The position numbers were made by a program, and so were the translations under genes. A DNA stretch of 64,000 nucleotides. Source: Litchfieldia alkalitelluris. GTDB lineage: Bacteria > Bacillota > Bacilli > Bacillales > Bacillaceae_L. A model generated the notes under the pieces. It ran no database searches, had not been told where the DNA came from, and saw nothing but the letters and a program-made list of their open reading frames with translations. Positions 10,915-47,781 of this stretch are shown one piece after another. Positions within the stretch are counted from its first letter, which is position 1. Every line of letters begins with the position of its first letter. The stretch is taken from NCBI RefSeq assembly GCF_002019645.1, contig NZ_KV917374.1, forward strand, positions 1,562,696 to 1,626,695, written 5' to 3'.

Positions 10915-13900
10915 TTGGGGAATAAAAGTAAAATCAGAAAGTTTCTTTATATATTTATGGTGTTTACCCTTGTTTTATCAAATTTACCATATGCAATAAG
11001 TGCTGAAACAAATAGCACAGATAGTAGCGATTATACTTTACTAACTGGTACTGATTTTGAGAATGACGATACTTGGGGTTTTTCTCCAGGTGGTGGGACA
11101 ACTGCCGAAGTAGTAACAGTAGACGAGAATAAATATTTAACCGTGACTGGGAACGGAAGTGGATTTCGTACGATAGCAAAGACTCTGGATGAAGCTACCA
11201 CTGATTCGGAGGTTTTATTTTCATTCGATTGGAAGCCAGGGGATGTCTCCACTGACTTAAATTCGAGCGAAATATTATTTAGCGATACTAGTGGAAATGC
11301 TCTTTTCAGAATCGTTAAAGCTGGAGGAACAGCTGGTGAGATTAAATATGAAGTTGGAACCAATGGTACAGATTTATCGGGAGCTGAAACCGTAACAAGT
11401 GTCAGCACAGATGAAAGCTGGTTATCTGTTGAGGTATTATTCGACTTTATTAATGAAAGCGTTTCATTAAATGTGGAAGATAAAAATGATGTAAGCAAGA
11501 GCTTCACAGCATCTGACATCGATATTAGTTTTCTTAATTATGTGAACAGTATTGAAAAGATTGCAATTAATGGTAACCGTGCTGGAGGTAATAATCTTAG
11601 CTTTGAAACTGGTTTAGACAATGTAGGTATTTATGGATCTGGAGAGGACGCTCCTTCTCAACAAGATCAAAACATTGTTTCGGTTGTAAGTGATTACAAC
11701 ACAGAATATACTCTACCAAAAGAGGTAGTTAAAGAGGATGTTATTTCTCTATTCCCAAGTATCCTTGATGTACAACTGGAAAATGATGTTGTCATTGGAG
11801 TAGGTGTGAATTGGGATAGCGCTGACTATAATGCAAATGAATTAGGCACATATTCTTTTGTAGGTACTCTAAATACGGAAGATGTTCCCAATGTAGCTAA
11901 TGGCAATGACATAAAAGCAACTATAAATGTTACTGTTGCTGAGGCTGGTGCTATCCCAGAGATTGACGGATATGTTGGGGTACATTACAGTGACTTTGGA
12001 GATATCGTTGAAGTAGTTCCTGCAAATTGGGGATTTACTACTGCTGCAGCTACTCTTTCAATAAATAGAGAAGATGTTGCAGGAAATACTACTCCAAAAT
12101 TACAATACAGCATTGCAAATCAATCAGGTGGACGTGTTGCTACAAAGAATTTTGATACAGCTGTAAAAGGGCAGGATATTCTTGTGACTTTTGATTGGTA
12201 TCCAGGAAAAAACAATGATAAAGCTGAACACCATGCTTCTGAAAATGGTGGGGAATTCAGAATCATTGACGGCTCTGGAAACAATGTATTTACATTAAAC
12301 AATACAAACAAAGCTCCAATAACTTACTATGCAGGAAATGGGACTCCTACTGCTACTGCTATTACAAATCCAGAAGCATGGTATGGAGTAGAAGTGAAAT
12401 TTGACTTAATTAATAATGAAGCAATATTAAAGCTAACTGATAAAGCGACAGGAAAAATTGAGGAATACACTTCGTCTCTAGATGGTGTAGCTTTTGATGG
12501 TTCTATAGCTACTGTTAAGCTTGTAGGTCTTCGTACATCTGGTAATAACCATACATGGACAACTTACCTTGATAATTTAGGAGTATATAGTGTTCCTATT
12601 TCAGATAGTACAATTATTAAGGTAGAAAAATTGCCATACCATCGAGTATATGTCGGTGAAACTACAGAAAGCATCGATTCTATCGGCTTACCAGAAACAG
12701 TAGAGGTAACACTAGCTGATAATAGCACAGTAGATGTTGCTGTTAGTGAGTGGGCTTCTGTTGGAACTGAATGGGATTCTAGTAAGTCAGGAGTTTACGA
12801 ATTTAAAGGTACTCTTGCAGAAACAGAAGGTTTCGAAAACGATTTTAATAGAAGCGCAACGATTTATGTGTATAATCGTCTGACTCCACCGAATAATGCT
12901 CGCCAAACAGAATGGCTTGATCGTGGAGTAGTTGCACTTAAATCAGAAGACGGTATCTTTATTAGCTGGCGCTTGCTTGCTGATGAATATGCTAAGGATG
13001 TAACATTCAATATTTACCGTAATGAAGAGAAATTAAATACGGAAGCTTTAGAGGTTACAAACTATTTGGATTCAGAAGGTACTCCAGGAGACACTTATAC
13101 AGTTGAGACACTAGTTGAAGGCTCTTCTACTGAAACAAATGAAGTACAAGCAGAGGGAACTGATTATCTTTCTATCCCAATGCAACAGCCTGAGGGTGGA
13201 ACAACTGCTACAGGAGATTATACGTACACTGTAAATGATTCAAGTGTTGGAGATTTAGACGGTGACGGTGAGTATGAGGTTATCGTAAAATGGTATCCGA
13301 CGAATTCAATTGATAGCTCACAACAAGGTATGACTGGTCCAACCATTTTTGATGCTTATAAATTGGATGGAACCCTTTTATGGCGTATCAATATGGGGCA
13401 TAACCTTACATCAGGAGCCCACTATCATCAATTTGTGGTAGCTGACTTTGATGGAAATGGTAAGAGCGAATTCCTTATCAAAACAGCAGATGCTACAACA
13501 TCATATGGTACAACAGATGGGGAATTTGATAGCAGCAAAGTACTTAGTGTAATTGGAAATGCTGAAGATGATGGTAAATGGGTAAATGAAACAGGACATG
13601 TGTATGGTGGTCCAGAATACATGTCAGTATTTAATGGTGAAACGGGTGAAGTAATCGATACAATTGATTATGCATTCCCTCTCGAAAAAGTAGAAGGCGA
13701 TAACGGTGCTTCATGGGGAGATACTTGGTATAACCGTTCAGATCGATTCCTTTCTGGGCTAGCTTATTTAGATGGCGTTAAACCGAGTGCAATCTATGGT
13801 AGAGGGTATTATGAAAGAACGTCTTTTGTCGCTTATAGTTTAGTAGACGGAAAGCTTATTGAAGAATGGACATTTGATTCGGACGAAGCTGGCAGAGGCG

Positions 13901-15084
13901 CAGGTATGGGTTATCACAGTCTTGCAACTGCAGATGTGGATAATGATGGCTTCGATGAAATTCTTGCTGGTTCATTAACACTTGATCAAGATGGCTCCAT
14001 CCTTTATGTAATGGATGGCGAAATGCAACGCGAATTAGGATCTCATGGAGATGCAATGCATGTAGGTGCATTTGATCCTGATCGAGAAGGTCTCCAGTTC
14101 TTCGGTGTGCATGAGGTGCCAGCAGTTGCATCTCTAGAGTTACACGATGCTGCCACTGGGGAAACGTTAATGTCATATTTCGCTTCTGTTGATGCAGGTC
14201 GTGGAGTTGCTGCGAACATTACATCTAGCCCTGGCTATGAATTCTGGGGAACGGGTGGTCATACTGTTGAAACAGGTGGAGGAATCTACAACGTACAAGG
14301 TAATGTTGTAGCTGATAGCTTTAGAGAAGCAGGTCTTTCTGTTAACTTTGCCCTATATTGGGATGGAGATCTGTTACAAGAATTACTTGATAACACGACC
14401 ATTACTAAATACAATGAAAACACTGGAAAGTCTGAACTAGTAAGAAGCTTTGAAGGTGTTGTAAGTAATAACGGAACAAAGGCAACTCCAACACTACAAG
14501 CAGATATTCTTGGAGACTGGCGTGAAGAAGTTCTACTTCCAACAACAGATAGTTCAGAGCTTAGAATATTCAGTACAACTACACCTACTGATTACAGATT
14601 ATATACGTTAATGCATGATCCAACATATCGATTGGGTGTTGCTTGGCAAAACTCAGGCTATAATCAGCCTCCACATATCGGCTTCTATCTAGGAGAAGAT
14701 ATTAGAGAAGCTGTTCTTGCTGGAAACTTAGAAGCGCCAGCAGTTGCATATACAAATGCACCTGAGACTGAGAATCCTGGAACAGACCCTGGAACAGACC
14801 CTGGAACAGATCCTGGAACAGACCCTGGAACAGATCCTGGAACAGACCCTGAAACAGACCCTGGAACAGACCCTGGAACAGACTCTGGAACAGACCCTGG
14901 AACAGACCCTGAAACAGACCCAGGAACAGACTCTGGAACTGATTCTGGTAAAGACAAGGGTGGCGAAAAATTACCAGAAACAGCTACTTCTACTTACAAT
15001 TGGATTTTAGTTGGAGTAGTACTACTTTTAATCGGTATTTCTTTCTTCTTTTGGAGTAACTCTAGAAGAAGACAAACAGTATAA
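10915..15084 (+). CDS. Cell-wall-anchored rhamnogalacturonan lyase, PL11, multi-domain
   Basis: Cleaves the rhamnogalacturonan-I backbone by beta-elimination outside the cell. The protein has about 1389 residues. Order: signal peptide (to about 33); two related modules of about 200 residues with GFTT/GFSP starts, probably carbohydrate-binding; two Big_4-like domains (around 250-345 and 575-660); a YesW-like PL11 catalytic region (about 665-1310) with RGVVALKSEDGIFISWRLL and calcium-type DLDGDGEYEV motifs; an Asp-Pro-Gly-Thr repeat linker; then LPETA, a membrane segment and an SRRRQ tail, i.e. a sortase signal. B. subtilis YesW/YesX are far shorter (about 600). AAGGAG at 10898-10903 favours TTG 10915; GTG 10903 overlaps that site. 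Confidence 0.88.
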   Translation: MGNKSKIRKFLYIFMVFTLVLSNLPYAISAETNSTDSSDYTLLTGTDFENDDTWGFSPGGGTTAEVVTVDENKYLTVTGNGSGFRTIAKTLDEATTDSEVLFSFDWKPGDVSTDLNSSEILFSDTSGNALFRIVKAGGTAGEIKYEVGTNGTDLSGAETVTSVSTDESWLSVEVLFDFINESVSLNVEDKNDVSKSFTASDIDISFLNYVNSIEKIAINGNRAGGNNLSFETGLDNVGIYGSGEDAPSQQDQNIVSVVSDYNTEYTLPKEVVKEDVISLFPSILDVQLENDVVIGVGVNWDSADYNANELGTYSFVGTLNTEDVPNVANGNDIKATINVTVAEAGAIPEIDGYVGVHYSDFGDIVEVVPANWGFTTAAATLSINREDVAGNTTPKLQYSIANQSGGRVATKNFDTAVKGQDILVTFDWYPGKNNDKAEHHASENGGEFRIIDGSGNNVFTLNNTNKAPITYYAGNGTPTATAITNPEAWYGVEVKFDLINNEAILKLTDKATGKIEEYTSSLDGVAFDGSIATVKLVGLRTSGNNHTWTTYLDNLGVYSVPISDSTIIKVEKLPYHRVYVGETTESIDSIGLPETVEVTLADNSTVDVAVSEWASVGTEWDSSKSGVYEFKGTLAETEGFENDFNRSATIYVYNRLTPPNNARQTEWLDRGVVALKSEDGIFISWRLLADEYAKDVTFNIYRNEEKLNTEALEVTNYLDSEGTPGDTYTVETLVEGSSTETNEVQAEGTDYLSIPMQQPEGGTTATGDYTYTVNDSSVGDLDGDGEYEVIVKWYPTNSIDSSQQGMTGPTIFDAYKLDGTLLWRINMGHNLTSGAHYHQFVVADFDGNGKSEFLIKTADATTSYGTTDGEFDSSKVLSVIGNAEDDGKWVNETGHVYGGPEYMSVFNGETGEVIDTIDYAFPLEKVEGDNGASWGDTWYNRSDRFLSGLAYLDGVKPSAIYGRGYYERTSFVAYSLVDGKLIEEWTFDSDEAGRGAGMGYHSLATADVDNDGFDEILAGSLTLDQDGSILYVMDGEMQRELGSHGDAMHVGAFDPDREGLQFFGVHEVPAVASLELHDAATGETLMSYFASVDAGRGVAANITSSPGYEFWGTGGHTVETGGGIYNVQGNVVADSFREAGLSVNFALYWDGDLLQELLDNTTITKYNENTGKSELVRSFEGVVSNNGTKATPTLQADILGDWREEVLLPTTDSSELRIFSTTTPTDYRLYTLMHDPTYRLGVAWQNSGYNQPPHIGFYLGEDIREAVLAGNLEAPAVAYTNAPETENPGTDPGTDPGTDPGTDPGTDPGTDPETDPGTDPGTDSGTDPGTDPETDPGTDSGTDSGKDKGGEKLPETATSTYNWILVGVVLLLIGISFFFWSNSRRRQTV
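14773..14946 (+). repeat. 12-bp coding repeat (GTDP linker)
   Basis: Tandem GGAACAGACCCT-type units encode (Gly/Glu)-Thr-Asp-(Pro/Ser). They form an extended, acidic wall-spanning spacer between the lyase and its anchor. The reverse-strand open frame here is a mirror of the repeat. Confidence 0.9.
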
Positions 15085-18422: not shown

Positions 18423-18441
18423 AGGGAAAACAGTGGGACGG

Positions 18442-18651
18442 CTTCTCGTGCTTCAAATGGAAGCATGAGAACCGTCCCACTGCTTCTCGTGCTTCAAATG
18501 GAAGCATGAGAACCGTCCCACTGCTTCTCGTGCTTCAAATGGAAGCATGAGAACCGTCCCACTGCTTCTCGTGCTTCAAATGGAAGCATGAGAACCGTCC
18601 CACTGCTTCTCGTGCTTCAAATGGAAGCATGAGAACCGTCCCACTGCTTCT
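18442..18651 (-). repeat. Tandem array, five 41-bp units with the palindromic core
   Basis: Exact period of 41 bp, with unit starts at 18442, 18483, 18524, 18565 and 18606 and a short partial at 18647. Each unit contains AGAACCGTCCCACTGCTTCT and a TGCTTCAAATGGAAGCA palindrome. A forward half-element (TGGGACGG) precedes it. The array abuts the stop codon of the next minus-strand gene. Confidence 0.95.
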
Positions 18652-24533: not shown

Positions 24534-24648
24534 GGAAGCGCTGGGACGGTTCTCATGCTTCGTCGAGAAGGAAAAAAGAAGCGCTGGGACGGTTCTCATG
24601 CTTCGTCGAGAAGGAAAAAAGAAGCGCGAGAACCGTCCCCTTGCTTCC
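24534..24648. repeat. Three palindromic repeats after the GRDP-like gene
   Basis: Two forward elements in a 43-bp direct repeat (GAAGCGCTGGGACGGTTCTC, linked by GTCGAGAAGGAAAAAA), then one reverse element (GAGAACCGTCCCC). Confidence 0.9.
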
Positions 24649-32741: not shown

Positions 32742-34428
<1,687 letters not shown>

Positions 34429-34450
34429 AATGCAAGGGAGGATGTTAATC

Positions 34451-35482
34451 ATGGCAAAACTTCATTTTGATGAAACTGAGATTACTAAATTAATTGATCG
34501 TGTCGTGAAAAGAACCTTTGAAATGGACTTTAATTGGGATTGGCCAGGTGGTGTTGCTTTTTATGGAGTGGCATGTGCCTATGAAGCAACTGAAAAACAA
34601 GACTATATTGATTTATTAAAAGCCTGGGTTGATGAAAAGCTTGAGGATGGCTTGCCAAGGCTATCAATCAATGGCGTATCGATTGGTCATTGTCTAATTA
34701 CACTTTATACCGTTACAGGGGATGAGAAGTATTTAGATGTGATTAAAGAGATGGCTGATTATTTACATAACGAAGCACATCGTTTTGCAGATGGAATTTT
34801 CCAGCATACTGTAAACTCAGTAAAGGATGTATTTCCTGAGCAAGCTTGGGTAGATACGATGATGATGGCAGGACTATTTCTTTTACGAGTGGGACGATTA
34901 CTAGAACGTGAGGATTATTTTAAAGACGGTCTTAAGCAGTATCATGGGCATGAAGATTTCTTGCAGGACCCAGTAACAAATCTCTATTATCATGGTTGGG
35001 ATAATATAGCTCAAAATCACATGTCATCGATTTATTGGGCTCGTGGCAATGGATGGGCTGCTTTGACTATGGCAAAGGCATTAGGGTTAATCGAGGTACA
35101 GGATCCATCGTATATGATTATTGATGGTTCTTTACGTGATCAATTAAGTGCGTTAGTGCGACTTCAAGGGGAAACAGGATTATGGCATACGATTGTGGAT
35201 GATCCTACTTCATACTATGAAATCTCAGGATCGGTTGCGATTGCAGCGGCACTGATGACTCGAGGAAGTCTTTATAATAAGTATATTCAAAAGGCGATAG
35301 ATGGGATCCTTAATGAAATTGAAGAGGATGGAAAGGTATCAAAGGTTTCAGCGGGTACGGCTGTCATGAATGATGCCGATGGATATAAGAATGTTCCGTT
35401 TAAGCGTATTCAAGGTTGGGGGCAAGGGTTAACACTAGTGTTTTTAGCTGAGTTATTGAAGAGTCGGAAACAGGTGTTTTAA
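34451..35482 (+). CDS. yesR: Unsaturated rhamnogalacturonyl hydrolase, GH105
   Basis: Removes the unsaturated galacturonyl residue left at the end of oligosaccharides by the lyase. About 343 residues, the length of YesR, no signal peptide, cytoplasmic. The (alpha/alpha)6 fold markers include the catalytic Asp in EQAWVDTMMMAG, plus HGWDN and SIYWARGNGWAAL. ATG 34451 is preceded by AAGGGAGG; earlier in-frame ATGs at 34421, 34430 and 34442 overlap the previous gene or the ribosome site. Its product would be rhamnosyl-terminated chains for the rhamnosidase encoded downstream. Confidence 0.92.
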   Translation: MAKLHFDETEITKLIDRVVKRTFEMDFNWDWPGGVAFYGVACAYEATEKQDYIDLLKAWVDEKLEDGLPRLSINGVSIGHCLITLYTVTGDEKYLDVIKEMADYLHNEAHRFADGIFQHTVNSVKDVFPEQAWVDTMMMAGLFLLRVGRLLEREDYFKDGLKQYHGHEDFLQDPVTNLYYHGWDNIAQNHMSSIYWARGNGWAALTMAKALGLIEVQDPSYMIIDGSLRDQLSALVRLQGETGLWHTIVDDPTSYYEISGSVAIAAALMTRGSLYNKYIQKAIDGILNEIEEDGKVSKVSAGTAVMNDADGYKNVPFKRIQGWGQGLTLVFLAELLKSRKQVF

Positions 35483-35525
35483 TTGATAGTTATTTTCTAG
35501 GGCAACACTGAAAATAACTGGGGGT

Positions 35526-35668
35526 GGAGAGTTCCATTCGCTGCAGTTCACTCGCTTTCCGCAGGGCGGTCCGGGAGCCTCCTCGTCGCCTGTGGCTCCT
35601 GTGGGGTCTCCCGAGACCGACCGCTATATATATCCTGTAGGAGTCGAGTGACCTTCCGCTCATTCCAC
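35526..35668 (-). repeat. GC-rich dispersed repeat, copy B
   Basis: Reverse-orientation copy, with GTTCCATTCGCTGCAGTTCA at the left and CCGCTCATTCCAC at the right. The internal GCCTCCTCGTCGCC block is conserved. Confidence 0.8.
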
Positions 35669-35753
35669 ACAAAGTGAGCAACATTTTTATTCTACATGGT
35701 GCTAATTTTGAATTAGCATGAATGTCTATCCTGAAAATACATTTGGTTAGCTG

Positions 35754-35882
35754 AGTTCCAGTCGCTGCGATTCACGCTCTTTCCACGGGCGGTGCTGTGA
35801 ACCTCTTCGTCGGAGGATCCTGCGGGGTCTCACTTTGCCACGTGTATTCCGCAGGAGTCGCGTGGCTCTCCGCTCATTCCAA
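35754..35882 (-). repeat. GC-rich dispersed repeat, copy C
   Basis: A second reverse copy 85 bases after copy B, diverged from it (GAGTTCCAGTCGCTGCGATT at the left, CTCCGCTCATTCC at the right). The two copies fill most of the 590-base gap between the GH105 and esterase genes. Confidence 0.8.
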
Positions 35883-36074
35883 GTACTCAGTAAGCCAAAT
35901 GCTATTATAGATCAAGACACTGTGTTAGCGAACATTTTAGAAAATGATTGAGTACATAGCAATTAAACATAAACCACGATACCGTGGTTTTTACTTTATG
36001 TACAGCTGTTTTGAATGTTGAATGCATTTTGAAGGAAAACTATTAAGATTAATTGTTTAGTAGGAGGTTACGAG

Positions 36075-37184
36075 ATGTCAGAGAAGTATTTATTTGACTT
36101 TGGAACTGGAGAGGCATTTCCAGGTTATACGAAGGTAACAGAGAAAAGTGTTTATAGTGATAAAAGTGGATTTGGTTTTAGTCGTTCTGACCAAATGTAT
36201 ATGATAAATCGAGAAACATCGAAACCGTTATTTAGTGATTTTTGTATTCCTCTAAGAAATAGCTTTTTAGTGGATGTACCAAACGGTGTCTATACGATTA
36301 CTTTCTTAATTGGTGATGCATTAGTCGAAACAGAAACAACGATTAAGTATAACGATAACAAAGTATTGATACGTGAATTGAAAACGTACCCAAAACAATT
36401 TGTAAGAGAAAGTTTTACAGTGAATGTTAATGATGGAAGAATCAAGCTGACTTTTTTCGGCTGCGCTCCTCGAATCAATGCGATGGAGATCTCACTGAAG
36501 AAGGATGCTGTTGCCATGTTTTTAGCAGGTGATTCAACTGTCGCCGATCAACCAATCGATGGTTATCCATATGCGGGCTGGGGGCAATGTCTGCCTCAGT
36601 ATATTAAAGCAGATGCAGTTGTTTGTAATCATGCATATTCCGGAAGAAGTTCTAAAAGTTTCATAGATGAAGGTAGGCTTGACTCAATTTGGGATCAAAT
36701 AAAAACAGGGGATTTTTTGTTCATACAGTTTGGACATAATGATTCAAAGCCTGATAAAGCACGTCATACCGACCCATTCACAACCTATAAAGAGTACTTG
36801 AAGATTTATATTGACGGTGCAAGACAACGAGGAGCGACACCTATACTCATTACATCGGTTCAACGCAGAATGTTTAATGATGATGGAAAGATTATTGAGA
36901 CCCATGGTGATTATATTTTAGCAGTTAAGGAGCTTGCGATTGAAGAAGGTGTACTGTTACTAGATTTGGCAGAAAAAAGTAAGAACCTTTACGAAAAATT
37001 AGGTCGTGAAGGTTCGAAAGCCCTTTTGATGTGGGGAGTTCCTGGAGAGTTCTTGAATTTTCCTAATGGTGTTAGTGATAATACTCATTTTCAAGAATAT
37101 GGTGCGAATTTTATTGCTGAATTAGTTGTAGAAGGTTTAAGGGAATTTAACTTACAATCTTTGAACTTATGTTTAAGGTCTTAG
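36075..37184 (+). CDS. SGNH esterase, probable rhamnogalacturonan acetylesterase
   Basis: 369 residues. The first ~145 form a beta-rich, galactose-binding-like module (YLFDFGTGEAFPGYTKVT). The rest is an SGNH hydrolase of the RhgT type: nucleophile Ser in AGDSTVADQ, Gly in GWGQC, Asn in FGHNDSKP, and the Asp/His pair in SDNTHFQEYGA. It probably removes acetyl groups from rhamnogalacturonan oligosaccharides. No signal peptide. ATG 36075 follows TAGGAGG. Starts an operon-like run with the GH42 and second esterase genes. Confidence 0.85.
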   Translation: MSEKYLFDFGTGEAFPGYTKVTEKSVYSDKSGFGFSRSDQMYMINRETSKPLFSDFCIPLRNSFLVDVPNGVYTITFLIGDALVETETTIKYNDNKVLIRELKTYPKQFVRESFTVNVNDGRIKLTFFGCAPRINAMEISLKKDAVAMFLAGDSTVADQPIDGYPYAGWGQCLPQYIKADAVVCNHAYSGRSSKSFIDEGRLDSIWDQIKTGDFLFIQFGHNDSKPDKARHTDPFTTYKEYLKIYIDGARQRGATPILITSVQRRMFNDDGKIIETHGDYILAVKELAIEEGVLLLDLAEKSKNLYEKLGREGSKALLMWGVPGEFLNFPNGVSDNTHFQEYGANFIAELVVEGLREFNLQSLNLCLRS

Positions 37185-37229
37185 ATAGTTTCTTTGTTTC
37201 AAAAAATCAATGATTGATAGGTGAAAAGG

Positions 37230-39221
37230 ATGACAAAAAAATTATATCACGGTGCCGCTTACTATCCAGAGCTGTGGCCAGAGGAAACAATAGAGGAAGA
37301 TATCAAATATATGCTTGAGGCGGGAATCAATGTTGTGAGAATTGGTGAATTTGCTTGGTCATCAATGGAAAAAGAAGAAGGAAAGATCGACTTGAGTTTT
37401 TTTGTTAACATCATCAACAGGTTGAGTGAACATGGAATTGAGACAGTGATGTGTACACCAACGCCAACGCCGCCAATCTGGTTAACTCATAATCATCCTG
37501 AACGAATGCATGTAGATCAAGAAGGACATGTGATGGTTCACGGCTCGAGGCAGCACATTTGTACCAACAATCCTGTTTTCAGGGAAAAAGCAGCGATCAT
37601 TACGAGAGAAATCGCAAAAGCAATCGGAAATCTTCCTGATGTGATTGCTTGGCAGCTAGATAATGAATTTAAATGTCATGTCAGTGAGTGCTATTGTGAG
37701 ACATGTAAATCACTGTGGCATCAATGGTTAGAAGAAAGATATGGCACAATTGATGTGTTAAATGAAGCATGGGGTGCCCATATTTGGAGCCAACACTACG
37801 GGCGGTTTGATCAAGTTCCGCAGCCTAAGGTTGCACCATTTCTTCATAATTCATCATTAAAAACGATGTATCAGTTATTTTCTTTTGAAAAGATTGCAGA
37901 GTTTGCTGATGAACAAGCGGCGATTATCCGTAAGTATTCAGATGCACCAATCACCCATAATAGTACAACATTTTTCCACGTGGATAATGAAAGACTTTAT
38001 GAAAACTTGGATTTCGCATCATTTGACACGTATGCGGAAAAAAGCAACTTTGCTTCCTACTTATTTAATTGTGATTTATGGAGAAATTTTAAAGCGGGAA
38101 GAGACTTTTGGATTATGGAAACAAGTCCGTCACATGCTGCGTCACTGGCAAGTCACTCTGCTCCACATCCAAATGGATATCTGATGGCAGAAGCTGTGGC
38201 AGCTTATGCGTTAGGAGGAGAAGCATTTTGTTATTGGCTTTGGAGACAACAACGTACAGGTTGTGAACAACCACACGGATCGGTGTTAAGTGCTTGGGGT
38301 AAACCGACTGTTGGGTTTGAAAATGTGAAGGAAGTTGAGTCTGCACGAAAAGAGATTGAATCTATCATTCTAGCTTCTAGACCATTACAAGCAGAAGTAG
38401 GAATTACTTATTCAGATAGGTCGCGGGCTTATTTTAAAACAGAGCCACATCGAGATTTAGACTATCGAGCACTAATTTCTAATTTCTACGAAAAAGTGTT
38501 ATCAAATGGCTACCATCGAGATCTCTTACCTGAGAAAGCTAGTTTACAAGGCTATAAATTATTGTTTACGCCTTTTCTACATTATGTTTCTAAACCTTAT
38601 ATGGAACGAGCAATGAAATTTGTAGAAGAGGGTGGAGTGTGGGTGGTTGGTCCTCTGACAGGGGGAAGAACAGAGAATCACACGATTCATACGAATGCTG
38701 CATTAGGAGAGTTGGAAGAACTGGCAGGAATTGAAACATTATTTACTTACCCGATGGATGGAACAGCGTCTATTGGTGAATTTCTAGACACTACTGCTCC
38801 ATTAAGCCTGTGGAGTGCGGTTTTTGATGCTAAAGATGCAAAAACAGTTGGAATCATTAACGAAGGTATCTCTGCTGGGCATGCTTTTATCACAGAAAAA
38901 AGCCGAGGAAAAGGTAAAATTGTTATGCTTGGTTCGTTGCCTGAAGGAGAAGCGGGTGACATTTTATTGAGTAAACTGATAAACCATTATGCGGAAGATG
39001 CAAACGTTCAACTACATACTGATGTATCTAAAGGAACGATTGTGGCACCAAGGGATCTTAACGGTGATGTAGTTTGGGTGATTGTGAACATGGACGGTCA
39101 TGGTGGTACAGTCACATTGCCGTGTATTGGGATTGATTCTTTAACAGGTGGCACAGTTGATAAGGGAATTTTAAAATTGAATCCGTTTGAATATAAAGTG
39201 ATTAAACTTAAGAGTAACTGA
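37230..39221 (+). CDS. yesZ: Beta-galactosidase, GH42, YesZ-like
   Basis: Removes beta-linked galactose from pectin galactan side chains in the cytoplasm. 663 residues, the length of YesZ. It has the acid/base Glu in IAWQLDNEFKC (about residue 146), the zinc-cluster cysteines in CHVSECYCETC, and the nucleophile Glu in FWIMETSPS. The trimerisation and C-terminal domains follow. ATG 37230 is preceded by AGGTGA; GTG 37221 lacks a site. It ends just before the second esterase gene. Confidence 0.93.
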   Translation: MTKKLYHGAAYYPELWPEETIEEDIKYMLEAGINVVRIGEFAWSSMEKEEGKIDLSFFVNIINRLSEHGIETVMCTPTPTPPIWLTHNHPERMHVDQEGHVMVHGSRQHICTNNPVFREKAAIITREIAKAIGNLPDVIAWQLDNEFKCHVSECYCETCKSLWHQWLEERYGTIDVLNEAWGAHIWSQHYGRFDQVPQPKVAPFLHNSSLKTMYQLFSFEKIAEFADEQAAIIRKYSDAPITHNSTTFFHVDNERLYENLDFASFDTYAEKSNFASYLFNCDLWRNFKAGRDFWIMETSPSHAASLASHSAPHPNGYLMAEAVAAYALGGEAFCYWLWRQQRTGCEQPHGSVLSAWGKPTVGFENVKEVESARKEIESIILASRPLQAEVGITYSDRSRAYFKTEPHRDLDYRALISNFYEKVLSNGYHRDLLPEKASLQGYKLLFTPFLHYVSKPYMERAMKFVEEGGVWVVGPLTGGRTENHTIHTNAALGELEELAGIETLFTYPMDGTASIGEFLDTTAPLSLWSAVFDAKDAKTVGIINEGISAGHAFITEKSRGKGKIVMLGSLPEGEAGDILLSKLINHYAEDANVQLHTDVSKGTIVAPRDLNGDVVWVIVNMDGHGGTVTLPCIGIDSLTGGTVDKGILKLNPFEYKVIKLKSN

Positions 39222-39238
39222 GGAGAGTGAGAATAAAA

Positions 39239-39895
39239 ATGGAACAAAACAAACATAGAATTCTTTTTCAAGGAGATTCGATTACAGATGGAGCACGCTC
39301 ACGTAATGAAGATAAAAGTCATTTAGTAGGTGCTAGTTATGCGTTCAAGATTGCAGGAAAGCTTAGTTATGAACTTGCTGAGAAAACTCCTGTATTTATG
39401 AATAGAGGAATCAGTGGGAATCGCGTATCTGATTTGTATGCACGCTGGAATGAGGATGCAATTAGTTTAAATCCAACCCTGATCAGTTTTTTAATAGGTG
39501 TTAATGATGCTTGGCGTTATATGGCGAAGGAACCAAGTGGAGTGACCGATCGGTTTGAACGAGCTTATCGACATTTATTAGAGGAAACGAGAGAAGTGCT
39601 TCCGGATACAGGTTTAATCATATGTGAACCATTTATTTTAAAAACAGGTGTCACAGCCGAGAACTGGGATGCTATGAATGATCGATTACAAAAGTATCAG
39701 GAACGATCTTCTAATTTAGCAAAAGAATTTGATGCAGTTTTTGTTCCACTACAAGATGCGTTTAATGAAGCAAGCAAAATGACAGAAGCTCACTTTTGGC
39801 TGTGGGATGGAGTACACCCAACCCCAGCAGGGCACGAACTTATCGCAAGAGAATGGTTAAGTGTTGTTCAAAAAAGTAAATTAGCGATTATTTAA
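39239..39895 (+). CDS. SGNH/GDSL-family esterase
   Basis: About 218 residues, cytoplasmic. Block I Ser is in FQGDSITDGAR, the block II Gly in NRGISGNRV, block III in IGVNDAWR, and the Asp/His pair in WDGVHPTPAGH. It resembles the small esterases of the yes region and probably deacetylates oligosaccharides. AGGAG at 39221-39225 precedes ATG 39239; GTG 39227 is too close to it. Last gene before the long 52-bp array. Confidence 0.85.
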   Translation: MEQNKHRILFQGDSITDGARSRNEDKSHLVGASYAFKIAGKLSYELAEKTPVFMNRGISGNRVSDLYARWNEDAISLNPTLISFLIGVNDAWRYMAKEPSGVTDRFERAYRHLLEETREVLPDTGLIICEPFILKTGVTAENWDAMNDRLQKYQERSSNLAKEFDAVFVPLQDAFNEASKMTEAHFWLWDGVHPTPAGHELIAREWLSVVQKSKLAII

Positions 39896-39990
39896 TAGGT
39901 GAAAGACATTTAAAGAGCCTTATGTAACGGTATAAGAATGTCTAGTGGTATGGGAAATTTCTTAGATCTATTTGTGTTGCTGATGATCTT

Positions 39991-41360
39991 GAGAAAGCGA
40001 ACCAGAGAACAGCTTTCGTTCCCTTTCATGGGCTATTGGTGTGGGAAAGGGAATCAGAGAACAGCTTTCGTTCCCTTTCATGGGCTATTGGTGTGGGAAA
40101 GGGAATCAGAGAACAGCTTTCGTTCCCTTTCATGGGCTTTGGGTATGAGAAAGGGAATCAGAGAACAGCTTTCGTTCCCTTTCATGGGCTATTGGTGTGG
40201 GAAAGGGAATCAGAGAACAGCTTTCGTTCCCTTTCATGGGCTATTTGTGTGGGAAAGGGAATCAGAGAACAGCTTTCGTTCCCTTTCATGGGCAATTGGT
40301 ATGGGAAAGGGAATCAGCCAGCATCTTTCGTTCCCTTTCATGGGCTTTGGGTGTGGGAAAGGGAATCAGAGAACAGCTTTCGTTCCCTTTCATGGGCTAT
40401 TGGTGTGGGAAAGGGAATCAGAGAACATCTTTCGTTCCCTTTCATGGGCTTTGTGTGTGGGAAAGGGAATCAGAGAACATCTTTCGTTCCCTTTCATGGG
40501 CTATTGGTGTGGGAAAGGGAATCAAACACGACCTTTCGTTCCCTTTCATGGGCTTTGTGTGTGGGAAAGGGAATCAGAGAACATCTTTCGTTCCCTTTCA
40601 TGGGCAATTGGTATGGGAAAGGGAATCAGCCAGCATCTTTCGTTCCCTTTCATGGGCTTTGGGTGTGGGAAAGGGAATCAGAGAACATTTTTCGTTCCCT
40701 TTCATGGGCTATTGGTGTGGGAAAGGGAATCAGAGAACATCTTTCGTTCCCTTTCATGGGCTTTGTGTGTGGGAAAGGGAATCAGAGAACATCTTTCGTT
40801 CCCTTTCATGGGCGATTGGTGTGGGAAAGGGAATCAAACACGAGCTTTCGTTCCCTTTCATGGGCTTTGGGTATGGGAAAGGGAATCAGAGAACATCTTT
40901 CGTTCCCTTTCCGGGGCGATTGGTGTGGGAAAGGGAATGAAACACGACCTTTCGTTCCCTTTCATGGGCGTTGGGTATGGGAAAGGGAATCAGAGAACAT
41001 CTTTCGTTCCCTTTCCGGGGCGATTGGTGTGGGAAAGGGAATGAAACACGACCTTTCGTTCCCTTTCATGGGCGTTGGGTATGGGAAAGGGAATCAGAGA
41101 ACATCTTTCGTTCCCTTTCATGGGCTTTGGGGGTGGGAAAGGGAATCAGAGAACATCTTTCGTTCCCTTTCATGGGCTTTGTGTGTGGGAAAGGGAATCA
41201 GAGAACATCTTTCGTTCCCTTTCATGGGCTATTGGTGTGGGAAAGGGAATCAAACACGACCTTTCGTTCCCTTTCATGGGCTTTGGGTATGGGAAAGGGA
41301 ATCAGAGAACATCTTTCGTTCCCTTTCATGAGCTTTGGGTGTGAGAAAGGGAATCAGAAA
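39991..41360. repeat. Tandem array of 26 hairpin-forming 52-bp units
   Basis: GGGAAAGGG-type unit starts recur every 52 bases exactly, from 39991 (variant GAGAAAGCG) to a partial 27th at 41343. Each unit has a perfect GAAAGGGAA/TTCCCTTTC inverted repeat around a 17-base loop, followed by a CATGGGC linker of variable end. Because 52 is not a multiple of three and the unit has no stop in any forward frame, three overlapping long open frames arise; none has a ribosome site or coding character. Occupies the gap between the esterase and GH115-like genes. Confidence 0.95.
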
Positions 41361-41395
41361 AACACCATAGGAGCCAAAGCGACGAGAAAATCATG

Positions 41396-41442
41396 AACCT
41401 CCCCGCGGCGCGAGTGAATCGCAGTGCACGGAACTCCACAAC
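41396..41442 (+). repeat. Fragment of the GC-rich repeat (copy E)
   Basis: CGCGGCGCGAGTGAATCGCA and CGGAACTCC match the 3' end of the GC-rich family. The rest is missing. Confidence 0.6.
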
Positions 41443-41489
41443 CAGGTTATTTACAGGTAGAACTAAAAAAAACTGAAAGGAAATCCTAA

Positions 41490-43529
41490 ATGACCACCAA
41501 CAAATACTTTATCTTGAACAATCAAACTTGCTTAGAGTATCAAGGTCCAAGTTTGAATGGGGTAAAACACTTCTTACAAGTATTAACGAGAGACAAAAAT
41601 AAGGTATTCCAAGAATCGACTACCCCAAAAAACACAACCGTTTTATTCGTTCTTGATGAACATAATCATAAAGAGTTGAATGCGGAACAATACACAATTC
41701 ACTTCTCAGAAGATCTGTCAGAAATGAAAGTGACTGCCGCAGATGAATTAGGAATCATCTATGGAATCCTACATGTTAGTGAACAACATCTTGGTGTTGA
41801 TAAATTTTGGTTCTGGAATGACTGTGAACCTGTTAGCAAAGAAGTGGTGGAAATCGCTCCAGTACCATTTTTATCAGAAATTCCAAAAGTTCGATATCGA
41901 GGCTGGTTCGTAAATGATGAAGTTCTCATTTCAGTTTGGAAGTATGAAGATTCTAATGAAATGGTTTGGGAAATGGTGTTTGAAGCATTATTGCGGTGTC
42001 GTGGAAATATGGTCATCCCCGGAACAGATATTGAAAATCCAGTATACAAAAATATCGCTATAAACATGGGGTTATGGGTCACACATCACCATGCAGAGCC
42101 CCTTGGAGCGCAAATGTTTGCTAGAGTATACCCTGACAAGAAGGCTTCTTATGTTGAAAATAAAGACTTGTTTCAACAATTATGGAAGGATGCAATTATC
42201 GAACAGAAGGATGCTAAAATTATTTGGAATATCGGTTTTAGAGGTCAAGGGGATCGGCCGTTTTGGGTAGATGATCCTACATTTGATACGGATGAGAAAA
42301 GAGGAGCATTGATTTCTGAGATCATGAGAGATCAATATGAATTAATCTCAGAGTATCAAGACGATCCAATCTGTTGCGTCAACCTTTACGGTGAAGTGAC
42401 TGAATTGTACAAGAAGGGATTACTAGAATTGCCTGATGGGGTCATTAAAATCTGGGCTGATAGCGGGTATGGAAAAATGGTAACGAGACGACAAGGGGAT
42501 CATAATCCTAGAGTGTCGTCACTTCCTTCTAAAAACGAAATCGGTCCACATGGCATTTACTATCATGTCACATTTTATGATCTTCAAGCATCAAATCATT
42601 TGACGATGTTGCCTAACACAACCACTTTTGTAAATAATGAACTTGTTCAGGCTTTTGAGCATGAAATGAATGATTTCTTAATTGTAAATTGTGGGAATAT
42701 TAGACCACATCTTTATTTTCTTGATGCGGTTTCTCAGATATGGCATCAGGGGGAAATAAATTCAGTGGAGTTCCTAAGTGAATATGTTTCTAGGTACTAT
42801 CCTTCATTTCCAGAAGGGATGAATAGGCATATCAATCATTATTTTGATGCGGTGATTCAGTATGGCGATTTAGAGGATGAACGAGCAGGGGAACAATTTT
42901 ATCATTTTACAATCAGAAAGCTGGCAAATCAATGGCTGGCATCTTTAGGGAAAGAGAGTGCTAGAAACCTATTTTGGGCAACTGGGGAATTAGACTTGGA
43001 GAATCAATTTACTTGGTTCAAAACAAAGGTAGAAGAGAAACTACGGCAGTGGGGAAAATTGTTAAAGAATGTGAAAGCCCTGGTTGGGGAAGCCGACCAT
43101 ATTGAACAAAAACGAGTTCATGATCAGTTTCTGATTCAGGTACAAATTCATAAAAATGGCTGTAAGGCTTTATCTTGTTTTAGCAAGGCGTTCGAACAGT
43201 TTCAAAAAGATGAATACCTTGCCGCTTACTTACTTGTTCATGATGCGATGCAAGAGGTAAAAGAAACAATGGAAATGATGGAGAAGACGACCTCTGAGAA
43301 GTGGGTTGGTTTTTATGATAATGATTGTCTAACGAATGTGTCATTAACCTTTTATGCACTAGAAACGGTAAGCAGATTTCTAAGATTGCTAGGAGATGGA
43401 CCATCTTTTTATCAATGGGAAAAAAAGTATCTTACGAGTGCTGCGGAGAGTTCAGTCGTATTATTAACAAATAAAACAAAGCAGCTTATGGATATGGAAT
43501 TGGTTGAGAGATTAAAAGATATCCAGTAA
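41490..43529 (+). CDS. GH115-like glycoside hydrolase
   Basis: 679 residues, no signal peptide. It matches the GH115 alpha-glucuronidase family in the N-terminal domain (LGIIYGILHVSEQHLGVDKF) and the barrel (VRYRGWFVNDE, WEMVFEALLRCRGNMVIPGT, THHHAEPLG, NLYGEVTELY). It would remove glucuronosyl decorations from oligosaccharides. It is shorter than typical GH115 proteins, which usually carry an extra C-terminal domain. ATG 41490 follows GAAAGG at nine bases. Activity on pectin rather than xylan is inferred from context only. Confidence 0.78.
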   Translation: MTTNKYFILNNQTCLEYQGPSLNGVKHFLQVLTRDKNKVFQESTTPKNTTVLFVLDEHNHKELNAEQYTIHFSEDLSEMKVTAADELGIIYGILHVSEQHLGVDKFWFWNDCEPVSKEVVEIAPVPFLSEIPKVRYRGWFVNDEVLISVWKYEDSNEMVWEMVFEALLRCRGNMVIPGTDIENPVYKNIAINMGLWVTHHHAEPLGAQMFARVYPDKKASYVENKDLFQQLWKDAIIEQKDAKIIWNIGFRGQGDRPFWVDDPTFDTDEKRGALISEIMRDQYELISEYQDDPICCVNLYGEVTELYKKGLLELPDGVIKIWADSGYGKMVTRRQGDHNPRVSSLPSKNEIGPHGIYYHVTFYDLQASNHLTMLPNTTTFVNNELVQAFEHEMNDFLIVNCGNIRPHLYFLDAVSQIWHQGEINSVEFLSEYVSRYYPSFPEGMNRHINHYFDAVIQYGDLEDERAGEQFYHFTIRKLANQWLASLGKESARNLFWATGELDLENQFTWFKTKVEEKLRQWGKLLKNVKALVGEADHIEQKRVHDQFLIQVQIHKNGCKALSCFSKAFEQFQKDEYLAAYLLVHDAMQEVKETMEMMEKTTSEKWVGFYDNDCLTNVSLTFYALETVSRFLRLLGDGPSFYQWEKKYLTSAAESSVVLLTNKTKQLMDMELVERLKDIQ

Positions 43530-43822
43530 TATTTACGGTGCTTACCCTATACTGGGAAGATTCTGTTGTAATGTTTACTAGTTAAGACATGTTGAAGGTG
43601 ATTCATTAATATATTAGGCTATTGGGGAGCGATGATTGGTATCATGGTTCCTCATTTATTTTAAGTTCTCTGTTATTTAGAAAAAGAGAACTGTTTTTTA
43701 TATATAACCGAAATGCATCTTTACCTATAATTAAGATAAGGAAAAGTCTAGCTTATAAAAGGTAAAAATAAAGCGCCTTCATTTATTTATGCTAGACAAA
43801 TACTAGATAAGGAGTTTTTCAT
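43530..43822. other. Gene-free stretch
   Basis: About 290 AT-rich bases. A weak inverted repeat (AAGTTCTCTGTTA / AAAGAGAACTG around 43663-43693) followed by TTTTTTATATA may end the GH115-like transcript. Nothing else seen. Confidence 0.4.
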
Positions 43823-45106
43823 ATGACCAAAAGATATGTGTTAATTGGAACAGGTGGAAGAGCCGAGTACTTTTATGGATCAGTTGTACGTGATTTTAGG
43901 GAAACGAGTCAACTTGTTGCTTTCTGTGATATAAATCAAACAAGAATGAATTATGCCAACCGTTTATTAGAGGAAAAATACAATCACCCTCAGGTAGCAA
44001 CCTATCTTGCTCATGAGTTTGAAACAATGATTGAGATTGAAAAGCCAGATACAGTCATTGTTACAACTGTGGATCGAACACATCATACATATATCATAAA
44101 AGCATTAGAGCTTGGATGTGATGTAGTAACGGAAAAACCAATGACCATCGATGCTGAGAAATGTCAGGAAATTATTGATGCGGTGAAAAGAACAGGAAGA
44201 GATGTCCGTGTTTCCTTCAATTATCGTTATGCGCCACATAATACGAAAATAAGAGAGTTAATTAAAAATGGTGTTATCGGAGATGTGTTCTCGGTTAATT
44301 TTGAATGGGCGCTGAACACGCAGCATGGAGCCGATTATTTCCGAAGATGGCATCGTGATAAGCGAAATAGTGGTGGATTGTTAGTTCATAAATCAACACA
44401 TCATTTTGATTTAGTGAACTTTTGGTTAGGTACGTCTCCAGAGACCGTCTATGCTCAAGGTGGCTTACGCTTTTACGGAAGAGAAAATGCAGAGGCAAGA
44501 GGCGTCACGAAGTTTTATCAGCGGGCACATGGAAGTGAAATTGCCAAGCATGATCCATTTGCAATTCAATTAGCTGACAACGATCATTTGAAAGCGATGT
44601 ATTTGGATGCTGAAGAGGAAGACGGCTATCAACGTGATCAAAGTGTATTCGGTGATGGAATTAATATTGAAGATACATTAGGAGTCATGGTGAAATATAA
44701 AAATAAAGCCATTTTAAATTATTCATTAAATGCGTATTTACCATGGGAAGGTTATACCGTGGCGTTTAATGGTAGCAAAGGCAGAATTGAAGTTCGTGTT
44801 GTTGAGCAATCTTATATCAATTCAGGCGGAAAGAAAGAAGATGAAGGGCGATTAGAGCAAAAGTCAATTGTCGTTATGCCGATGTTTGATACGCCATATG
44901 AGGTAGAGGTGGAAGAAGGAGTAGGTGGCCATGGTGGTGGTGACCCAATTCTGTTACAAGACCTTTTTGGCACACCTATAGAGGATGAATTCAACCGTGC
45001 GGCTTCCCATGTTGATGGAGCTATGTCGATTCTTACAGGGATTGCAGGGAACATCTCATTAAATACAGGCCAGCCCGTAAACGTCGATCAATTAGTGAAG
45101 TTTTAG
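43823..45106 (+). CDS. Gfo/Idh/MocA-family oxidoreductase
   Basis: 427 residues. N-terminal NAD(P) Rossmann fold (VLIGTGGRAEYFYGS), the family EKPM motif (VVTEKPMTID) and a C-terminal substrate domain with LVHKSTHHFDLVNFWLG. These enzymes oxidise or reduce sugars or remove sugars by a redox mechanism. ATG 43823 follows AAGGAG. Placement inside the glycan locus suggests a role in sugar processing, but the substrate is unknown. Confidence 0.87.
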   Translation: MTKRYVLIGTGGRAEYFYGSVVRDFRETSQLVAFCDINQTRMNYANRLLEEKYNHPQVATYLAHEFETMIEIEKPDTVIVTTVDRTHHTYIIKALELGCDVVTEKPMTIDAEKCQEIIDAVKRTGRDVRVSFNYRYAPHNTKIRELIKNGVIGDVFSVNFEWALNTQHGADYFRRWHRDKRNSGGLLVHKSTHHFDLVNFWLGTSPETVYAQGGLRFYGRENAEARGVTKFYQRAHGSEIAKHDPFAIQLADNDHLKAMYLDAEEEDGYQRDQSVFGDGINIEDTLGVMVKYKNKAILNYSLNAYLPWEGYTVAFNGSKGRIEVRVVEQSYINSGGKKEDEGRLEQKSIVVMPMFDTPYEVEVEEGVGGHGGGDPILLQDLFGTPIEDEFNRAASHVDGAMSILTGIAGNISLNTGQPVNVDQLVKF

Positions 45107-45113
45107 TTTTAAA

Positions 45114-45266
45114 GGAAGCGGGGGCGGTTCTCCGGAGCGGGGGGACGGTTCTCATGCTTCCTTCATAATGATTGAGGAGGAAGCGCAAGAACCGTCCCAA
45201 TGCTTCCCCGAAGCGCAAGAACCGTCCCAATGCTTCCCCGAAGCGCAAGAACCGTCCCCGTGCTTC
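45114..45266. repeat. Palindromic repeat cluster, two forward and three reverse
   Basis: Two forward elements (one degenerate, GGGGGCGGTTCTCC) are followed by three tandem reverse units of 30 bp (GAAGCGCAAGAACCGTCCC). The translated repeat gives RKNRPNASPK-like peptides in the frame of the next gene, upstream of its real start. Confidence 0.9.
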
Positions 45267-45294
45267 AATGCTCATAAAAAGAGGTGAAGTGTCG

Positions 45295-47781
45295 ATGAGT
45301 GGTTTGTTACAGCAGAAGTTTTTGGATCCAGATGAGGAATTTACACCTATGCCCTTTTGGTTTTGGAATGATGATTTAACACATGATGAAATTAAAAGAC
45401 AGATCCATGATTTCAATGAGAAAGGGGTCAAAGGGTTTGTCTTACATCCAAGAATTGGGATTCCGAAAGAGATTGAATATTTGTCAGATTCATTTATGAA
45501 TTATGTTCAAACAGCTGTTAGTGAGGCTGAATTACATGGAATGTCCGTGATTTTATATGATGAGGCGATGTATCCATCAGGTGCTGCAAAAGGTTTTGTG
45601 GTGAAAGAAAACCCAGCATATGCGAGCCGTGGCTTGAAAATGCTAGAATATAAGACTTGCGAAGAGTTATCTATTCCTATTCACCTTGAAGATGGCGAAA
45701 CACTCGTTTCGGTTCAAGCGGGGAAAAAGATAAACGATAGAAAAATTAATTTGACGAGTTGTCATATCATTCATCCTCATGGGAATAGGATTAATTTTAT
45801 CCCGCCTGATAACGATGAGTGGACTGTGTTCGTTTTTATCGAAACGTTTACACAAGGGACAATTCGCGGCATTCATTTTGGTGAAGATGATGGAGAAGAA
45901 AATGCACCGCGTTCAGCTGATTTATTAAATCCAGCAGCGGTGAAAACCTTTATTCAACTAACTCATGATGCCTATTATCATAAATTAAAGAGATATTTCG
46001 GTAAAACGGTGATTGCCTTTTTTACAGACGAACCTGAAATCATGGGGCGCGGAGCAACACCTGGACTAAAGCCATGGACATCAGACTTTTTAATTCAGTT
46101 CGTGCAAAACGGCAATCAAGAAACAGACTTACCTGCCTTATGGTTGGATGCTTCTGAACGAACGATAGAAATACATAAAAACTATCAACAAGCTGTTCAT
46201 AATGTATTGATTGAAGTGTATTATAAACAAATTTCACAGTGGTGTGAGGAACATGGAATTGCACTAACAGGTCATCCAGCAGCGAGTGATGATATCGGTT
46301 TGCTTAGATTTTTTCATATTCCTGGACAGGATGTGGTCTGGCGTTGGGTTGGACCTGAGAATGGAACTGCCATAGAAGGACATCACTCTACAGCGGCGAA
46401 ATGTTCATCAGATGCAGCTAGACATCGAGGAAGAAGAAGAAACCTAAACGAAGTGTTAGGGGTGTGCGGAAAAGAAACACCTTGGGCATTAAGTCCAGGT
46501 GATATGAAGTGGTATCTCGACTGGCTGTTGGTCAGAGGGGTGAACCTCTTAGTACCACATGCGTTTTATTATTCTGTTGATGGCAAGAGACGTAGCCATG
46601 AAAGACCACCTGATGTTGGTCCAAATAATCTTTGGTGGCCTTATTATAAGCAATTTGCCCAATACATAAAGCGGTTAAGTTGGTTGATGACTGATAGCAT
46701 CAATTTGACAGCGGTTGCAATTTTGTGCGAGGCTAATCGGTTGCCATGGAAAATTACGAAGCCTTTATTTGAAAATCAGATTGAATTTAATTACTTAGAA
46801 GAGGAGTTACTACTGTCTTCATGTAGAGTAGAAAACGGAAGAATTAATATTGCTAAGCAAACATACAACGTGATTGTAATAGAGGACCCTTTTCAATTAT
46901 CAGTTGAGGTAAAGGCTAGGTTAATAGATTTTATTAATGGCGGTGGCCGAGTCATTGTCTATAGTGAAGATGGGGCTGTGGAGATCATTCTAGGTGCTAC
47001 GGTAATTACAAGACCAGAAGAGGTGGTTGCGGAGATTCCTTCTTGCGACCGAAGTGAAGTGGTTTTAACTCTTGCAAGCAAATATATTAGAGTTAGTAAA
47101 GTAGTGAAGGACGATTGTATCTTTTATGTGCTTGTGAATGAAGGTGAAGACACTTACCAAGGTGCAATTTTAACCAGTGAGGTTGGAAATGTAGAGAAAT
47201 GGGATCCGTGGGATGCAACGATTACACAGGTTGATGTTCAAATGAAAGGTGACCAATTACTAGTTCCAGTTACATTGGAAAGAAGATCATCTGTTGTCTT
47301 TTGTGTGGACCCGAGCGAATCTATAAAGTTAGGGAATGATGATCCAACGAAAGTAGTCGGTCACCAAATAAAGCATATAGAGATGAACGAACGCTGGATA
47401 GCTCGTTGTGATGACAAAGTGATGGAGAGCCTTGAATTAGAGTCTTGGGTAACGTGGGATGGAATGGAACATTATTCAGGAACGGTTATCTATGAAAATA
47501 CGTTTAACATGGAAGAATTGCGCGACGTAGCTAAAGTCTTCTTAGAGCTAGGCGAAGTCTATGAAATGGCTCATGTGTTTATAAATAACAACGAGGTTGG
47601 AATCAAAATGTGGGCACCCTATCGTTTTGAAGTAGACAGGTCATTGATCCGAAATGGATTAAATACTCTTAGGATAGAGGTTACAAATAGCAAGGCTAAT
47701 CAAATGGATGATGCCAGATTACCTTCAGGGTTACTTGGTCCTGTTTTATTGGAAGCGCGGGAAGCGTGGGGACGGTTCTGA
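45295..47781 (+). CDS. GH106-like alpha-L-rhamnosidase
   Basis: 828 residues. N-terminal barrel with PMPFWFWNDDLTHDEIKRQI and MSVILYDEAMYPSGAAKG, the pattern of GH106-type enzymes, and a C-terminal sugar-binding beta domain (VFLELGEVYEMAHVFINN). It probably removes rhamnose from oligosaccharides after GH105 has acted; no signal peptide. AAGAGGTGA precedes ATG 45295. The last residues (EAWGRF) are encoded by a dispersed repeat and the TGA stop is formed by the first three bases of IS copy 2; the uninterrupted repeat would also have supplied a TGA there. Confidence 0.8.
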   Translation: MSGLLQQKFLDPDEEFTPMPFWFWNDDLTHDEIKRQIHDFNEKGVKGFVLHPRIGIPKEIEYLSDSFMNYVQTAVSEAELHGMSVILYDEAMYPSGAAKGFVVKENPAYASRGLKMLEYKTCEELSIPIHLEDGETLVSVQAGKKINDRKINLTSCHIIHPHGNRINFIPPDNDEWTVFVFIETFTQGTIRGIHFGEDDGEENAPRSADLLNPAAVKTFIQLTHDAYYHKLKRYFGKTVIAFFTDEPEIMGRGATPGLKPWTSDFLIQFVQNGNQETDLPALWLDASERTIEIHKNYQQAVHNVLIEVYYKQISQWCEEHGIALTGHPAASDDIGLLRFFHIPGQDVVWRWVGPENGTAIEGHHSTAAKCSSDAARHRGRRRNLNEVLGVCGKETPWALSPGDMKWYLDWLLVRGVNLLVPHAFYYSVDGKRRSHERPPDVGPNNLWWPYYKQFAQYIKRLSWLMTDSINLTAVAILCEANRLPWKITKPLFENQIEFNYLEEELLLSSCRVENGRINIAKQTYNVIVIEDPFQLSVEVKARLIDFINGGGRVIVYSEDGAVEIILGATVITRPEEVVAEIPSCDRSEVVLTLASKYIRVSKVVKDDCIFYVLVNEGEDTYQGAILTSEVGNVEKWDPWDATITQVDVQMKGDQLLVPVTLERRSSVVFCVDPSESIKLGNDDPTKVVGHQIKHIEMNERWIARCDDKVMESLELESWVTWDGMEHYSGTVIYENTFNMEELRDVAKVFLELGEVYEMAHVFINNNEVGIKMWAPYRFEVDRSLIRNGLNTLRIEVTNSKANQMDDARLPSGLLGPVLLEAREAWGRF
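47761..47778 (+). repeat. Left part of the palindromic repeat interrupted by IS copy 2
   Basis: GAAGCGTGGGGACGGTTC, continued after the IS at 49219 as TTCTGATGCTCC. Removing the IS and one TTC restores a standard element. Confidence 0.88.

Follow-up and report, generated by a model that had tools for sequence, protein, structure and literature searches.

Why does a stretch of 26 nearly identical hairpin units lie between two genes of a glycan-degradation locus in Litchfieldia alkalitelluris, and is it peculiar to that locus? To answer this, we analysed a window of 64,000 nucleotides (assembly GCF_002019645.1, contig NZ_KV917374.1, positions 1,562,696 to 1,626,695) and compared it with the rest of the genome and with sampled relatives. 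An earlier note, made from the sequence alone, had described a 52-bp array of 9-bp inverted repeats with 17-base loops, had excluded a CRISPR array, and had proposed a protein- or RNA-binding array, a recombination hotspot or a transcription barrier.

The Array in the Window

The tandem repeat search (TRF) confirmed that the array described in the note is real, with 88% matches and a score of 2080. In the unit-by-unit map the arm TTCCCTTTC was exact in 26 of 26 units and the arm GAAAGGGAA in 25 of 26, unit 1 reading GAAAGCGAA. Both loops are 17 bases long, the motif spacing is 25/27 throughout, and no indel was found in our unit alignment. The loop and linker variants listed in the note are present and recur, so that nothing resembling spacers is seen and the requirement of a CRISPR array for non-recurring spacers is not fulfilled, although regular repeats with dyad symmetry are shared with CRISPR arrays. 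The linkers alternate through much of the array, giving a 104-bp super-period, and units two apart are more alike (3.75 mismatches) than neighbours (6.28). This does not point to a general 104-bp duplication quantum, as lag-2 similarity exceeded lag-1 similarity in only 17 of the 46 arrays tested, all with a consensus unit of about 52 bp. The neighbouring genes are as the note had said. The features of the window are collected in Table 1.

Table 1. Features of the 64,000-nucleotide window (position 1 is its first letter).
Position	Strand	Feature	Observation
39993..41358		52-bp tandem array, family A (type I)	26.3 copies; alternating inverted motifs AAAGGGAA / TTCCCTTT, starts 25/27 bp apart
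39227..39895	+	GDSL esterase gene upstream of the array	Pfam Lipase_GDSL_2, 1.1e-25
39896..39992		About 97 bp between esterase stop and array	No similarity to the flanks of the other sampled arrays (hits to 0 others)
41359..41489		Right flank, resembling the ~220-bp dispersed module in degenerate form	GGAACTCCACAACC at 41430; hits to flanks of 11 other arrays
41490..43529	+	GH115 gene downstream	Pfam Glyco_hydro_115, 4.7e-64
39938..41396	+	Overlapping open frames through the array (368, 431, 247, 141 aa), taken not to be genes	Only Pfam hit (PagP, first frame) below its cut-off
33136-47781		Glycan-degradation cluster	Solute-binding protein, GH88, GH42, two GDSL esterases, GH115, a GFO/IDH oxidoreductase and a GH106-like gene
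3137-3226, 18441-18651, 24535-24647, 45180-45266		Four short tandem patches, REP-like	Periods 30-47 bp, sharing GAACCGTCCC or its complement
14776-14939		12-bp tandem repeat, 13.7 copies	Inside the long ORF 10903-15084; probably a low-complexity protein stretch

The open frames running through the array are taken as a by-product of stop-free units, since 52 is not a multiple of 3 and the consensus units of sister arrays carry stop codons. The Rfam scan (at gathering score) and the tRNA scan of the window gave no match.

Distribution of the Arrays in the Genome and in Relatives

The unit was searched against its own genome (5.43 Mb, two contigs; here G000), a check that the note had suggested. 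This gave 43 matching rows at 40 distinct places spread over one 5.4-Mb contig, which is a lower bound, as only 40 of 55 first-look candidates were scored. In the 40 fetched loci (numbered with L below) the alternation of motifs holds with few breaks. The modal unit length is 52 in 37 arrays, 51 in 2 and 53 in 1, and of 315 units 242 are 52 and 56 are 51 bp long. At one locus (L007:1148-2094) another 52-bp array of unlike sequence (family B) lies 8 bp from the family-A array, suggesting that arrays arise or insert next to each other. Family B has at least 33 matching rows of its own (40 of 56 candidates scored).

To remove the bias of a sequence query, 1.6 Mb of the genome was taken in contiguous blocks (about 8.8 kb of it reading N) and the window was added, giving 1.664 Mb, or 31% of the genome. 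Of 136 non-redundant tandem arrays, 55 have three or more copies; 26 of these have period 52 and 10 have period 104, and no other period has more than 3. Two more, reported at periods 259 and 313, are family C. Other tandem repeats exist too, for example of 41, 193 and 214-221 bp. A scan of all lags from 10 to 130 in the same DNA gave 38 segments at lag 52 (14.0 kb), 53 at lag 104 (14.9 kb), 13 at 103, 6 each at 51 and 105, and at most 4 at any other lag. The arrays fall into family A (AAAGGGAA), B (AATCATAG..CTATGATT), C (TTCGGACAGCTTT..AAAGCTGTCCGAA) and D (AAATCCGGCGGG-type boxes, 104 bp), plus a few others. Family C has at least 129 matching pieces in the genome (40 of 43 candidates scored), at roughly thirty loci when merged by eye, and one family-D query found 12 pieces.

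The exact family-A pattern occurred in 2 of 149 and in 2 of 396 genomes searched, the own genome and the relative G044 in both cases. Family C gave matches in 6 of 119 genomes, the own genome included, with at most three candidates scored per genome. Five relatives were sampled to 20-200 kb each; they were chosen because they gave a family A or C match, so that they do not measure prevalence in the order. All five contain arrays of period 51-52 or 102-104, mostly of other sequences: peaks at 51/52 and 102/104 were seen in G002, G005, G099 and G024, several arrays of period 51 being found in G002 and G005, while the 186 kb of G044 hold one 52-bp array. Examples are ATGACGGACA..TGTCCGTCAT in G099, ATTGGACA..TGTCTAAT and TCGCGGGATT boxes in G002, and TTTATCGACC..GGTCGATAAA in G005; some belong to family C. 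Meanwhile, 200 kb of E. coli MG1655 (4 x 50 kb) and five named Metabacillus/Bacillus loci (64 kb) gave no segment at any lag. Family A had no match in 50,697 phage or 72,556 plasmid records, and family C none in the plasmid records.

Clustering of 49 consensus units of exactly 52 bp gave 12 groups at 62% identity (10 at 60%, 15 at 65%, 20 at 70%), and shuffled units never exceeded 50% in 300 trials. Remote common descent of some groups is nevertheless possible, as several contain GGACA and the family-C cluster also holds arrays of G002, G005 and G024; part of the shared period could therefore be inherited.

Tests of Helical Phase

As 52 bp is five turns and 104 bp ten turns of the double helix at 10.4 bp per turn, we examined whether the arrays keep such a register. 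In the type II arrays of the own genome, 1756 distances between boxes fitted a lattice of 20.80 bp, that is 2 x 10.40 (R 0.93, against 0.885 at 21.0). The mean spacing per step was 21.0 at step 1 and 20.77-20.85 from step 2 to step 20. This value follows from 104 bp holding five even slots, and the long distances repeat the same tandem copies; what is informative is that the boxes keep to fifths.

The length of the units was kept while their sequence changed. In 17 family-A elements sharing a non-tandem head, all counted with one aligner, the indel:substitution ratio was 10:68 in the head and 14:521 in the adjacent array (p = 3e-4), so that relative to substitutions indels are about five-fold rarer inside the arrays. 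A count with 20 heads, including 3 over 90 bp that were then dropped, pointed the same way (24:195 against 19:601, p = 2e-5). It should be noted that substitutions and indels in arrays are partly copies of one event, and tandem copies are not independent.

AA/TT steps were phased at 10.4 bp: the 5th harmonic of 52 bp was 0.106 against 0.051 +/- 0.014 in shuffles (0 of 300 as high), although it was the strongest harmonic in only 3 of 12 clusters. A wedge model with unsourced parameters made 10 of 12 clusters more curved than tiled shuffles. In this model random tiles of 52-54 bp were the most curved (end-to-end ratio 0.77-0.84, against 0.91-0.97 for 47-51 and 55-57 bp), with the extreme at 53 and not at 52. 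Inverted arms were found in 55 of 59 consensus units (of 78 arrays, those with a unit of about 52 bp; no null was used). The dyad score exceeded the shuffled 95% point in 7 of 12 clusters and was higher base-centred than step-centred in 12 of 12.

Tests of a Role at the RNA Level

A single unit folds as RNA at -17.9 kcal/mol (z -3.0), and a two-unit piece has z -4.3. Compensatory changes were looked for in the stems of 38 distinct family-A units, drawn from 39 of the 40 arrays (L037 gave no unit). Pairing was 91.5% against 91.2% in shuffles (171 of 500 as high) and the covariation score 0.085 against 0.082 (153 of 500 as high), although the core pairs hardly vary and the power is limited. Among the 55 arrays with a stem, the sense strand of the 23 co-directional ones showed 80 G.T against 59 A.C mismatches, 8 arrays one way and 9 the other. 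Some single arrays were strongly one-sided (38 to 1, 0 to 27). In the family's own orientation, the 39 family-A consensus stems had 24 G.T against 5 A.C, mostly at two pair positions and probably inherited; an RNA role would predict such a skew. That orientation was 3 sense and 4 antisense in the 7 sampled arrays with co-directional neighbours, read by eye. Terminator-like hits numbered 19 against 3.1 expected, but all were on the minus strand, opposite to the operon strand, with the T-run inside the repeat stem. On balance, these results favour a duplex-level role or no role.

Genomic Context and Turnover

With a home-made gene caller (coding fraction 0.72-0.83), 77 of 81 array intervals in six genomes were non-coding. 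Of the 4 called coding, two (528446 in the own genome and 132955 in G002) look like type II arrays under a spurious open frame. Of 72 intervals with both neighbours, 26 lie between convergent genes, against 92 of 807 array-free gaps over 200 bp (odds ratio 4.4, p = 2.5e-7); two arrays in one gap count twice. A replication-strand count of family A, made by eye with an assumed terminus position, gave 16 against 24.

Array positions are not conserved between species. Of 108 neighbour pairs conserved with G002 (up to one gene between; median identity 81% over 128 reciprocal best hits), 7 have an array only in G000, 6 only in G002 and 1 in both, with different sequences. Of 27 pairs conserved with G005, 2 have an array, both only in G000. 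The nearest named relatives of the GH115 gene are Metabacillus and Bacillus sp. PS06; in the latter the GH42 and GH115 genes are about 30 bp apart, with no array and no match to the second esterase. So arrays come and go.

One head sequence precedes the array at 21 of 40 family-A loci, and 18 of these also carry the matching tail directly after it. They sit in a modular dispersed repeat system with bodies of about 193 bp, about 220 bp and the array module, with common ends (CACCATGGAG.ATGAAAA ... TTTTCAGGGTAGAC) that recur with other bodies and are often chained one after another (L014, L017, L018, L020, L033 and others). The array in the window lacks this head, and family C and D arrays and those of the relatives show few or no shared flanks. 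In addition, the genome has eight PF01797 (Y1 transposase) rows at about six places, two of them near full length, a possible mobiliser of the REP-like patches in Table 1.

Discussion

The interpretation in the earlier note was partly supported. It was right that this is a tandem array of inverted repeats and not a CRISPR array, and a binding or structural array fits best. An RNA-level hairpin and a transcription barrier on the operon strand were not supported. It could not be seen from the window alone that the array is one of at least 40 of its family and one of many 52/104-bp arrays of unlike sequence here and in relatives. Its place in a glycan locus is therefore, by inference, probably incidental.

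We tentatively propose, with a probability of about 0.42, that the array belongs to a class of dispersed intergenic tandem arrays whose period stays close to whole turns of the DNA helix while the sequence differs between families and species. The sequence analysis itself establishes the concentrated period, the even box lattice, the scarcity of length changes compared with neighbouring sequence of the same element, the phased AA/TT steps, two-fold symmetric units in most families, lineage-specific gain, the preference for gaps between convergent genes, and no overall sign of selection on RNA structure. That the duplex is what matters is our inference, as are any binding and any topological role. 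In this view, with whole-turn units, every unit would put its bend and its symmetric site on the same DNA face, and an array would become a curved, wrappable tract or a row of same-face protein sites. It would then act as a local topological or nucleoid-organising site (gyrase or a nucleoid-associated protein) where insertion is tolerated, although no protein partner was found and the arrays may be merely tolerated rather than beneficial to the cell. A precedent is given by the gyrase sites of E. coli, which have arms with periodic GC content and are over-represented in BIME-2 (PMC6379681), but the period of the gyrase motif is 10.75 bp and not 10.4. A more far-reaching reading, which we consider somewhat less likely but not excluded, is that Bacillales chromosomes carry a sequence-free class of DNA element, defined by a helix-locked lattice (10.4 bp/turn; 20.8-, 52- and 104-bp periods) and continually rebuilt with new sequences. 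Such arrays would work as curved or wrapped duplex springs or docking rails for topological or nucleoid proteins, especially between convergent genes.

A selfish or neutral satellite is nearly as good an explanation. Here a replication or recombination mechanism would itself prefer units of about 52 bp, helical phasing would be a by-product of that machinery, and arrays would persist only where harmless. A 52-base ruler also gives 104, units within an array are much alike, positions turn over between species, and enrichment between convergent genes, the pattern of tolerated insertions, is likewise seen for parasitic repeats, namely pneumococcal BOX, RUP, SPRITE and IS (PMC3049150). However, a ruler alone does not explain the five even boxes inside the 104-bp units or the phased AA/TT steps. 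The indel depletion suggests selection on length, though a ruler that rebuilds arrays could mimic it.

The remaining explanations are less likely. A BOX-like composite element, in which the array is the variable middle of a module spreading in trans, agrees with the heads and tails of family A, but it does not fit the array in the window, which lacks the head, and does not explain the period. A transcribed hairpin acting as a terminator, stabiliser or RNA-binding array is still less likely: the stable fold, the one-sided arrays and the consensus-stem skew speak for it, while the absence of covariation beyond shuffles, of an overall sense-strand bias and of an orientation rule speaks against it. 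Repeats of this length can mis-assemble, but we found nothing in favour of an assembly artefact or a misread coding gene. The number and spread of the family-A places, the same period in other genomes, unit lengths that are not multiples of 3 and the non-coding position of most arrays make this very improbable.

Among described systems, the BIMEs and REP arrays of enterobacteria are likewise intergenic, clustered and of alternating orientation, often between convergent or co-directional genes, and some bind gyrase (PMC6379681, PMC3733652). A REP is a palindrome of 20-40 bp with a GTAG or CGTC tag (PMC3733652); the 52-bp family-A consensus contains neither tag on either strand. A further REP criterion is a cognate Y1 (RAYT) transposase linked to the repeat, for which the PF01797 rows of this genome are only candidates. 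The arrays studied here have longer and strictly periodic units, several unlike families in one genome and a period near whole helix turns. In our reading they would work somewhat like E. coli BIMEs without being members of that family. BOX elements of Streptococcus pneumoniae, built as boxA-(boxB)n-boxC (PMC3049150), share the head, tandem unit and tail architecture with 18 of 40 family-A loci as well as the enrichment in convergent gaps, but the array in the window and the sampled C, D and relatives' arrays lack such a head and tail. MIRU-VNTR loci of Mycobacterium are dispersed intergenic tandem arrays with a period near 53 bp at tens of loci. They form one sequence family, whereas here there are several unlike families and an even 20.8-bp sub-lattice. 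No title or abstract opening listed in our searches of the open literature reports the present arrays.

Short-repeat families are usually defined by sequence. Here the shared trait appears to be geometry, namely the period, to within a base or so, of many unlike arrays. If an amplification mechanism sets this period, the arrays point to a copying process with a 52-base step that we could not find described. If instead duplex register is under selection, they offer a natural series of constructs for asking how bacteria use phased DNA and whether intergenic repeats manage supercoiling between converging genes, a question long raised for BIMEs.
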